From: an uncultured Actinomycetes bacterium
GTDB lineage: Bacteria > Actinomycetota > Acidimicrobiia > Acidimicrobiales > Microtrichaceae
Direction of reading: 5' to 3'
Assembly: GCA_903868545.1 (NCBI GenBank)
Contig: CAIPVR010000228.1
Location: forward strand, 1-41,338
Length of the DNA: 41,338 nucleotides
The position numbers and the translations under genes are program-made. Position 1 is the stretch's first letter, and each line of letters starts with the position of its first letter. Shown here one piece after another: positions 10,658-14,132 of the stretch. The notes beneath the pieces were generated by a model. The model was not told where the DNA came from. It saw nothing but the letters and a program-made list of their open reading frames with translations, and did no database searches.

Positions 10658-11176
10658 TCAGCCGCGGCGCGCCGCCTTCTTCAGGAGCTTCTCGACGTGC
10701 TTGATCCCCTCGCAGGGGTCGTAGCCCTCCGGACAGGTGAGGTTCCCGGCCCGACCGAACTGGCGCGGGTGCACGATGAGGAAGCAGGTGCCGCAGGTGA
10801 ACTCGTCGGCGCCCTTGGCCGCCACCCGCTCCTGGGCCTCCGGGCTGCCGTCGTCGACCTCGTCCTCGTCCTCGTCGTCGTCGTCGCCCGCGGCGATGCG
10901 GTCCTTGAGGATCGTGTCCAGGTCGGCCTCGACGTCATCGGGGTTGAGGTCGTCCTCGTCCTCGTCCTCGTCGTCGCCGGCCCGCTTCGCCCGCGCCGTG
11001 GGGACCGCGTCCGCATCCTCCTCGTCGTCCCCGTCGGCGGCGTCCACGACCTCGTCGTCGCCGTCGAGGTCGTCACCGTCGACCAGTTCGTCGTCGTCGA
11101 GTTCCTCGTCGCCGTCGAGTTCCTCGTCGAGGTCCTCGTCGAGTTCGTCGTCCACCAGCTCGTCGTCGTCGCTCAT
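10658..11176 (-). CDS. Highly acidic protein with C-terminal Cys-rich (DUF4193-like zinc ribbon) domain
   Basis: 172 aa; Asp/Glu-rich N-terminal two thirds, then ADEFTCGTCFLIVHPRQFGRAGNLTCPEGYDPCEG. Confidence 0.75.
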   Translation of the reverse strand: MSDDDELVDDELDEDLDEELDGDEELDDDELVDGDDLDGDDEVVDAADGDDEEDADAVPTARAKRAGDDEDEDEDDLNPDDVEADLDTILKDRIAAGDDDDEDEDEVDDGSPEAQERVAAKGADEFTCGTCFLIVHPRQFGRAGNLTCPEGYDPCEGIKHVEKLLKKAARRG

Positions 11177-11280: not shown

Positions 11281-12909
11281 TCAGCGTCCGGCGCCGGTCC
11301 GCCGCTCCTCGGCCCGGCGCTCGGAGCCGAGCCGCTCGAGGTCCTGTTCCCCGGAGTGGTCGACGAACCGCATCATCTCCGCGATGGTGCGGTGGCCCGC
11401 CTGCTCGGCGATGAGGTGGTGCATGCGCTGCCCCACCGAACGGTAGGACGGGTGACCCTGCACCGAGGTGCGCAGCTCGATCAGGTGCATGGCCTCGCGG
11501 GCGTTGAACTGCATGACGTAGCGGATCCGGTAGGCCAGGGCCACGGCGTACGGCGCCCGCTCCGGGTACCGCTCGGCGAGGGCGCTCCAGAGGGAGGCCG
11601 AGATGTCCATCGCCTCGTCGAAGCGGCCGGCGAGGCCGGCCTCGTCGATCGACGGCGGCCGCGTGTAGCCGTGGAGCGGGGACAGCTCCTGCCACTCGAC
11701 GGTCATGAGGCGGTGACGCTGCAGATCCCGGAACGCCCCGTAGTCGGACACGACGTCGAAGCGGTAGTCGGTCCGCTCGAGGGCCCGGCCCGGCTTGTGG
11801 CGCCGGTTGGCCCGGTCGCCCACGTACGCCCGTACGACGGCCAGACGGTCCTCGACCGACATGGCCCGGACCCGCTCGAGGAGCCTCGTCTCGCTCAGAC
11901 CCGTGTACGGGTAGAGCATGGCGGCCACGACCTTGACCTCGCCGTCGGGGTCGAAGTCGACGAGCTCGACCTGTGGCTCGGTGGGACCCTGCACCCCGTC
12001 GCCGGAGAGCAACTCGTAGGCCGCGGTCTCCATGGCCTGGCGGTTCGTCTCCAGGTAGCGGCTCCAGGCGAGTCCCCGGTCCGGCAGGTCCACCCGCTTC
12101 AGGAAGCTCGGGATCACCTTGCGCAGCTCGGTGAGCATGAGGTCCGCGTAGGCCCGGGCCTCGGGGAGCGGGTGTGAGCGCATCCGCAGCAGCAGCGCCT
12201 CGAACCCCTGCCCGGAGCCGTAGATGCCCACGTTGGACAGTGCCGCGGCCGGGAGGATGCCACGGGTGGCGTCGAAGGCCTTCGCCCGGATGGCCTGCCG
12301 GTACACGAAGTCCGAGTCCGCCTCACTCTTCGGGTGGCGTTCCCGGAAGTGGTCCTGCACGTCGCGCGCGAGGCCGGCGTAGGAGTCGAACAGCCGGTCC
12401 ATGTCGCCGACGTAGCGGGCCCCCAGGTTGGATCCGAGGATCTCGGGGTCCCGGAAGTAGCGGTACCGACCACCGAGCCGTTCGTCGTAGGGGATGTAGC
12501 GGGTGGACTGCTCCAGGTAGCTCATGAGCCGACCCCACTCCAGCACCTTGGTGAGGAGGTTGGAGGCCTGTTCGCAGGCCAGATGCACCCCACCCAGCTG
12601 GGCGACGCTGTCGTCGCCGTACTCGAAGAACACCCGGTCGTAGAGGGCCTCGGCCCGCTCGAGCCCGATCGTTGCGTCGATCGTCTCGTCCCCGGTGGTG
12701 TCGAGCTCCCCCACGAACTCGTCAAGGAAGAGCCGGCGCAGCGACTTCGCGGAACGGCTGTAACGGGCGAACAACGCCCCCTTCACCACCTCGGGCAGGT
12801 TGACCAGGGCGAAGACCGGCCCGTCGAGGTTGGTGAAGTACCGCCGCAGGACGGCCTGCTCGTCCTCGGTGAACTGCTCGCCCACGTAGGTGGGCACCGG
12901 TGCGCTCAT
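11281..12909 (-). CDS. ThyX-like (FAD-dependent thymidylate synthase family) tandem-domain protein
   Basis: 542 aa from ATG at 12909 (MSAPVPTYVGEQFTEDEQ...). Half 1: LLTKVLEWGRLMSYLEQSTRYIPYD; half 2: FRDLQRHRLMTVEWQELSPLHGY...NAREAMHLIELRTSVQGHPSYR. Confidence 0.75.
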   Translation of the reverse strand: MSAPVPTYVGEQFTEDEQAVLRRYFTNLDGPVFALVNLPEVVKGALFARYSRSAKSLRRLFLDEFVGELDTTGDETIDATIGLERAEALYDRVFFEYGDDSVAQLGGVHLACEQASNLLTKVLEWGRLMSYLEQSTRYIPYDERLGGRYRYFRDPEILGSNLGARYVGDMDRLFDSYAGLARDVQDHFRERHPKSEADSDFVYRQAIRAKAFDATRGILPAAALSNVGIYGSGQGFEALLLRMRSHPLPEARAYADLMLTELRKVIPSFLKRVDLPDRGLAWSRYLETNRQAMETAAYELLSGDGVQGPTEPQVELVDFDPDGEVKVVAAMLYPYTGLSETRLLERVRAMSVEDRLAVVRAYVGDRANRRHKPGRALERTDYRFDVVSDYGAFRDLQRHRLMTVEWQELSPLHGYTRPPSIDEAGLAGRFDEAMDISASLWSALAERYPERAPYAVALAYRIRYVMQFNAREAMHLIELRTSVQGHPSYRSVGQRMHHLIAEQAGHRTIAEMMRFVDHSGEQDLERLGSERRAEERRTGAGR

Positions 12910-12941: not shown

Positions 12942-14132
12942 TCAGGGGATGGCGGTCGGGAGCGGCTCCGTGGCCGGGGTGGGGCCCGCCGCCCAACGAT
13001 CGAGCGCCGTGTGCGCCATCAGCACGGCGCCGTCCACCACCGCACGGTCCCCCTCCGGACCCCGGGCGAACCCGGCGAACTCGGGCGTGTGGATCGACAC
13101 GCCCCGGGGGGCCACCTGCAGCATGGGATGGATGCTCGGGACCAGGTGGCTGACGTTGCCCATGTCGGTGCTCCCCACCACGTGGCCCACCTCGGCGGGG
13201 TCGAGCGGCGGGCGTCCGAGCGCTGTGGCGTTCGCCACCCAGGCCGCCAGCAACCACGGGTCGTCGACGAGGTCGGCGTAGGCCGGGTCCTGCCAGGTGT
13301 GTTCCATCGAGCAGCCGGCCGCGTGCGCGCCGGCCTCGAGGCACGCCAGCACGCGGGGCTGCAGCGCAGCGAGCGACCCCGTGGTGTCCGACCGCACGTA
13401 CCACTCTGCGGCCGCCCGGCGCGGGACGATGTTCGGCTTCTCCCCGGCCTCGGTGAAGATGCCGTGGATCCGCTCCCCGTCGCCGATGTGCTGGCGCAGC
13501 GCAGCCACGTTCACGTAGCCGAGCACGGCGGCGTCCAGTGCGTTCCGGCCGAGCTCGGGCGCCGCCGCGGCGTGGGAGGCCACGCCGTGGTAGGTCACCT
13601 CGAGGCGCTGGATGGCGATGGCCCGCATGGTCGGGAGGTCCCGGTCGGCCGGGTGCACCATCATCGCGGCGTCGACCCCCTCGAACGCACCGGCACGGAT
13701 CAGGAACTCCTTGCCGCCGCCGCCCTCCTCGGCCGGCGTGCCGATGATCCGGACCCGTCCGCCCATCTCGTCGGCGAGTTCGGCGAGCGCGAGCCCCGCC
13801 CCCAGGCCGGCCGCCGCGATCACGTTGTGGCCGCAGGCGTGGCCGATGTCGGGCAGCGCGTCGTACTCGAGCAGCACGGCGACACAGGGACCTTCCGTGC
13901 CCGCCTCCGCCACGAAGGCGGTGGGAAGGCCGTGCGCATGGGGCGTGGGGGCCAGCCCGGCCCCGGCGAGCACCTCGACGAGGAGGTCGTGGGCCCGGTG
14001 CTCCTCGAAGCACAGCTCCGGGTGCTCCCAGATGGTGTGGCTGACCGAGAACAGCAGGTCGCGATGGCGCGCCACCGCTTCGTCGGCACGGACCTTGGCC
14101 CGCGCCGGGCCGGGAGCTCCCGCCGCGTCCAC
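12942..14132 (-). CDS. M20-family metallopeptidase / amidohydrolase
   Basis: 396 aa; HPELCFEEHRAHDLLVEVL, GHACGHNVIAAAGLGAGLAL, GTPAEEGGGGKEFLIRAGAFEGVDAAMMVHP. Confidence 0.9.
   Translation of the reverse strand: MDAAGAPGPARAKVRADEAVARHRDLLFSVSHTIWEHPELCFEEHRAHDLLVEVLAGAGLAPTPHAHGLPTAFVAEAGTEGPCVAVLLEYDALPDIGHACGHNVIAAAGLGAGLALAELADEMGGRVRIIGTPAEEGGGGKEFLIRAGAFEGVDAAMMVHPADRDLPTMRAIAIQRLEVTYHGVASHAAAAPELGRNALDAAVLGYVNVAALRQHIGDGERIHGIFTEAGEKPNIVPRRAAAEWYVRSDTTGSLAALQPRVLACLEAGAHAAGCSMEHTWQDPAYADLVDDPWLLAAWVANATALGRPPLDPAEVGHVVGSTDMGNVSHLVPSIHPMLQVAPRGVSIHTPEFAGFARGPEGDRAVVDGAVLMAHTALDRWAAGPTPATEPLPTAIP

Follow-up and report, generated by a model that had tools for sequence, protein, structure and literature searches.

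A tandem ThyX with complementary halves as a probable flavin-dependent thymidylate synthase of Acidimicrobiia

Thymidylate synthase makes the DNA letter T, and its flavin-dependent form, ThyX, is a drug target that, to our knowledge, is absent from humans. Canonical ThyX (also FDTS; PF02511, EC 2.1.1.148), as in Thermotoga TM0449 and Mtb ThyX, is a homotetramer. According to the passage of PMC6514825 on active-site composition, the active site of solved ThyX is composed by three subunits: A provides the RHR motif and R174 (Thermotoga numbering, used below; Mtb R199), B provides S/T55 and R165 (Mtb S71 and R190), and C provides S88, R90, and Y91 (Mtb S105, R107, and Y108) together with a backbone contact at E86. 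The same passage states that R174 contacts dUMP and that T55 is a FAD contact from subunit B; it assigns S30 and R147 to no subunit, and these were counted here by their conservation in each half. ThyX users often lack folA because ThyX returns H4folate (PMC9931769; PMC1971073). Both the domain family and the name given to proteins like the one studied here (NCBI: FAD-dependent thymidylate synthase) are already known. In the open-licence PMC literature, we found no description of a tandem, double, or fused ThyX or of a split site, nor of a family-wide partition or a sole-synthase role in most Acidimicrobiia.

The window, a 41,338-nucleotide contig (CAIPVR010000228.1) of an uncultured bacterium of the Microtrichaceae (Acidimicrobiia), contains one tandem ThyX gene (Table 1). 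The sequence-only reading had its coordinates right but omitted the strand; the ORF lies on the minus strand. Alignments with homologs begin at residues 1–11 of the 542-aa protein. An in-frame extension of the ORF up to 14013 was rejected as spurious because it overlaps an M20 peptidase gene (12942–14132) in a different frame of the same strand. No link to dTMP synthesis was found among the neighbors in the window (GNAT, M20 peptidase, zinc dehydrogenase, CtaG, SCO1, and helicase). Adjoining the tandem gene, on the minus strand at 10658–11176, is a very acidic 172-aa ORF with a CxxC...HPRQFG tail, for which no Pfam match was found at 1e-4.

Table 1. Coordinates in the window of the tandem ThyX gene, its halves, and its key residues (Tm, Thermotoga ThyX numbering; counts refer to 54 tandem proteins)
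Feature	Coordinates	Strand	Remarks
Tandem ThyX gene	11281..12909	-	542 aa; ATG at 12909, stop 11281-11283
Half 1 (residues about 1-300)	12010..12909	-	Thy1 domain; retains partner-subunit-side residues of the ThyX site
Half 2 (residues about 301-542)	11284..12009	-	Thy1 domain; retains RHR/R174 side of the ThyX site
Half-1 motif WGRLMSYLEQSTRY, residues 125-138	12496..12537	-	E133, S135, R137, Y138 = Tm E86, S88, R90, Y91; invariant 54/54; RH lost
Half-2 motif RHRLMTVEWQELSPLHGY, residues 398-415	11665..11718	-	R398 H399 R400 = Tm R78 H79 R80; 54/54; SxRY 0/54
S101 = Tm T55	12607..12609	-	Invariant in half 1 only (n=54)
R216 = Tm R147	12262..12264	-	Invariant in half 1 only (n=54)
R480 = Tm R174 (dUMP-contacting Arg)	11470..11472	-	Invariant in half 2 only (n=54)

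The presence of two ThyX-like segments, first proposed from the letters of the sequence, was confirmed using profile searches. The whole protein scored 115 bits against Pfam Thy1 (PF02511) over two Thy1 stretches, and the halves run separately scored 36.6 bits (half 1) and 63.6 bits (half 2), both passing the gathering cut-off of 24.8 bits. The boundary between them, however, lies near residue 300 and not at residue 260, where the protein had been split into 1–260 and 261–542. Against TIGR02170, the NCBIfam thyX equivalog, the protein reached 44.4 bits, under the cut-off of 87.9 bits. Two AlphaFold models had pLDDT values of 66 and 69, with half 2 modeled well and the half-1 motif region below 50. 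A Foldseek search with the AlphaFold model gave Thermotoga ThyX (TM0449) chains as all of its best 50 matches, with a TM score of about 0.65 over the target. This medium-confidence model indicates a ThyX fold in at least one half, as the Foldseek output is silent on which half aligned. Comparison of the single sequence with solved structures gave nothing meaningful, and profile comparison gave a marginal ThyX match (E 0.07).

Residues were mapped onto Thermotoga ThyX by profile–profile alignment (hhalign), which replaced a MAFFT alignment of the halves with Thermotoga ThyX that misplaced the motifs, and were then counted in 54 diverse tandem proteins (Actinomycetota, Parabacteroides, Bacillus/Paenibacillus plasmids, and two phages; identity down to about 21%). 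In the window protein, the motif region reads EWGRLMSYLEQSTRY in half 1 (residues 124–138) and QRHRLMTVEWQELSPLHGY in half 2 (residues 397–415). R78, H79, R80, and R174 were each present in half 2 of all 54 proteins; in half 1, H79 and R174 were found in 0/54 and R78 in 9/54. S30, T55 (as Ser), E86, S88, R90, Y91, and R147 were each present in half 1 of all 54 and unconserved in half 2. Thus, the claim that half 1 keeps the SxRY part and half 2 keeps RHR held in 54/54 proteins, with no counterexample. The sequence-only reading was also right that RH is lost from half 1, but the second Arg of RHR stays there (R80; R127 in the window protein, retained in 49/54 homologs). Neither the 54-sequence diverse set nor an 81-sequence close set contained any protein with RHR in half 1, SxRY in half 2, or intact motifs in both halves, and a contiguous RHRxxSxNExSxRY within one domain occurred in 0/54. 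The complementary pattern is identical in the two sets and far beyond chance. When both halves are combined, the catalytic and dUMP-binding residues of canonical ThyX are complete in 54/54 proteins, indicating that the family overall carries one complete residue set, partitioned along subunit lines.

The R165 slot, assigned to subunit B, sits less easily with the composite reading and behaved differently between branches. Actinobacterial members have Gln in half 1 (Q234; 12208–12210) and Arg in half 2 (R471; 11497–11499), and the divergent phage/plasmid members have a half-1 Arg in 4/5 and a half-2 Arg in none; that is, the FAD-phosphate Arg switched halves between the actinobacterial and the phage/plasmid branch.

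A scan of contigs from one genome per species yielded 389 relatives; the 80 retained came almost entirely from Acidimicrobiia or were otherwise actinobacterial. A family profile search detected the tandem form in 73/248 Actinomycetota genomes, and searches of plasmid and phage proteins added long relatives from Euzebya, Miltoncostaea, Parabacteroides distasonis, plasmids of Bacillus and Paenibacillus, and phage Tunturi_5; Vibrio phages gave a partial match (77%). In the tree, the half-1 sequences of every lineage formed one clade (100/100), and therefore one ancient fusion explains all sampled lineages, indicating that the tandem form arose once. The half-2 sequences fell on one side of the tree, less well supported (56/77), and canonical ThyX stood apart (99/96); the finer structure is unsure because the branches are long. 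These data bear on whether the protein could be a degenerating duplicate whose reciprocal losses reflect neutral decay toward a pseudogene. Part of the motif is indeed missing from each half, but the same pattern persists down to about 21% identity and across phyla and phages, and close relatives are strongly conserved; this conservation already refutes decay, to which we assign next to no probability. Of the "reciprocal decay" originally suggested, the reciprocal loss stands and the decay does not; a partition of roles fits better because, with one role per half, the lost residues would no longer be needed.

The tandem ThyX of P. distasonis (Bacteroidota; NZ_OY725790, labeled a plasmid) is 46% identical to the window protein and is encoded four genes upstream of dihydrofolate reductase; horizontal transfer is possible in this case. 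At five other loci (L145–L149), in families whose other genera have tandem ThyX, we observed single Thy1 proteins of about 250–300 aa that seem to be circularly permuted: they start with the motif region (TTxEVTLHRFVLAELNTHRxFSRNSxSSRAIP), and their end resembles the canonical N-terminus (CARVSYLTHDG...PPHWSPxEHVATP).

Next, we considered the thymidylate synthase content of the genomes. No ThyA, second Thy1, thymidine kinase, or DHFR was found in the host assembly (97% complete), which answers the question, raised with the sequence-only reading, of a thyA or canonical thyX elsewhere in it. Wider counts came from 119 Acidimicrobiia and 248 Actinomycetota, sets that are phylogenetically non-independent, with Fisher-test p-values too small given this relatedness. 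Among the 119, 10 had no Thy1, all 10 of which had ThyA, and 8 small genomes had a single canonical ThyX; the other 101 were counted as tandem, including G016 and G116, each of which gave one match (in G016 at the edge of a contig). Full or split ThyA occurred in these 101 only in G096 and G009, with partial matches in G042 and G057. Among the 248, ThyA above 200 bits was found in 1/73 tandem genomes, and another thymidylate synthase candidate in 171/175 non-tandem genomes, many of these being weak ThyA-like matches. Together, these results suggest that the host and most members of its class make thymidylate with tandem ThyX alone. Many Actinomycetota (families f37, f48, f50, and others), most without Thy1, had only a weak partial ThyA match of about 33–48 bits, mostly to the C-terminal part, in frames of roughly 220–330 aa; these may represent a divergent ThyA type.

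DHFR (PF00186) was detected in 9/12 ThyA genomes of Acidimicrobiia versus 2/99 tandem-only genomes (one a weak, 27-bit match) and 0/8 canonical-ThyX genomes, and in G096 the DHFR gene adjoins ThyA. DHFR tracks ThyA, not the tandem protein, and tandem genomes obey the ThyX folate rule. Three ThyA-only Acidimicrobiia of one group (f30 g63; G071, G108, and G111) had no PF00186 match, and therefore another dihydrofolate reductase may serve in them. Near the tandem genes of relatives, dCMP deaminase is encoded in phage Tunturi_5 and dCTP deaminase in Euzebya, neighbors in keeping with thymidylate synthesis. These genome data weigh on the second alternative of the sequence-only reading, a repurposed flavoprotein that binds FAD and nucleotide without making dTMP (e.g., for another uracil methylation or as a regulator). 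Such a role would be in keeping with the lack of a whole ThyX motif in either half and with the score under the TIGR02170 cut-off. However, the catalytic residues are retained across both halves in 54/54 proteins, the host has neither a second thymidylate synthase nor a thymidine kinase, and the tandem pattern complements ThyA over the 119 and 248 genomes. We consider repurposing improbable because in the host, as in most of its relatives, no thymidylate synthase other than this protein is recognizable and because DHFR is absent from these genomes, as in ThyX users.

The composite active site, the other alternative first proposed, is supported: the kept residues match the subunit assignment in the cited passage of PMC6514825, and the partition is invariant in the family. 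Tandem ThyX is very probably an active flavin-dependent thymidylate synthase working as a chain dimer (pseudo-tetramer) with two composite and two dead sites. It would convert dUMP to dTMP with CH2H4folate, FAD, and NADPH. Two chains would come together, their four Thy1 domains re-forming the ThyX tetramer in alpha2beta2 form, as a pseudo-tetramer. Half 2 (beta) would play the subunit-A role, with RHR acting on FAD and R174 on dUMP, and half 1 (alpha) the subunit-C role, with E86, S88, R90, Y91, and probably R147 serving dUMP and the lid; the other half-1 domain (alpha) would play the subunit-B role through S/T55. Two of the four sites would then be complete, and the remaining two dead, with RHR/R174 missing from one side and SxRY from the other. 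Fusion probably fixed the role of each half, with the residues of the opposite role being lost afterward. Of the three roles, B is assigned with the least certainty: S101 favors half 1, but the R165 slot varies by lineage. The invariance of S101 in half 1, together with that of the C-role residues, points to a contribution from two half-1 domains.

The same residues speak to a thymidylate synthase whose composite site forms within a single chain (a pseudo-dimer monomer) or in some assembly other than the chain dimer. Fusion could set the A-role and C-role domains side by side, and the movement of R165 between halves among lineages hints at an adjusted geometry. Known ThyX sites nevertheless draw residues from three subunits, according to the passage of PMC6514825, and the B-role S101 is invariant in half 1 alongside the C-role set; we regard such an arrangement as unlikely, albeit less so than repurposing. 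Overall, the evidence points, with good probability, to a widespread type of thymidylate synthase, essential in most of an actinobacterial class, for which an ancient single fusion made a pseudo-heterotetramer out of homotetrameric ThyX, with one half-domain dedicated to FAD/RHR, another to dUMP/lid, and only two working sites. The family would thus offer a clear natural case of a shared-interface active site divided by duplication and fusion. Since the site is divided between the halves, mutations could address one by one the subunit roles that are difficult to disentangle in the homotetramer. The tandem form is also putatively essential for thymidylate synthesis in a large group of environmental bacteria, and phages and plasmids carry it as well. 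Annotation is affected too: the score of the tandem form against the canonical ThyX equivalog lies below the cut-off, and a motif scan would label each half broken.

Compared with the canonical homotetramer, tandem ThyX shares the Thy1 domain, as judged by profile and by Foldseek, and has all key active-site residues once the halves are summed, and a similar genomic setting without ThyA and DHFR. It differs in that two Thy1 domains are fused in one chain, neither with the full RHRxxSxNExSxRY, in that two sites per four domains are predicted versus four in canonical ThyX, and in that Asp occupies the H53 position of half 1 in 49/54 tandem proteins. The long RefSeq records named FAD-dependent thymidylate synthase (Euzebya, Miltoncostaea, P. 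distasonis, and Bacillus/Paenibacillus plasmids; 84–94% of the query covered, 22–50% identity) belong to the same tandem family and show the same motif partition, but their annotation consists of the name only and does not mention a complementary site. The thymidylate synthase of Tunturiibacter phage Tunturi_5 is likewise tandem, with the same partition and an adjoining dCMP deaminase gene; it is, however, only 27% identical over aligned positions, and its half 1 retains His at H53 and Arg at R165.
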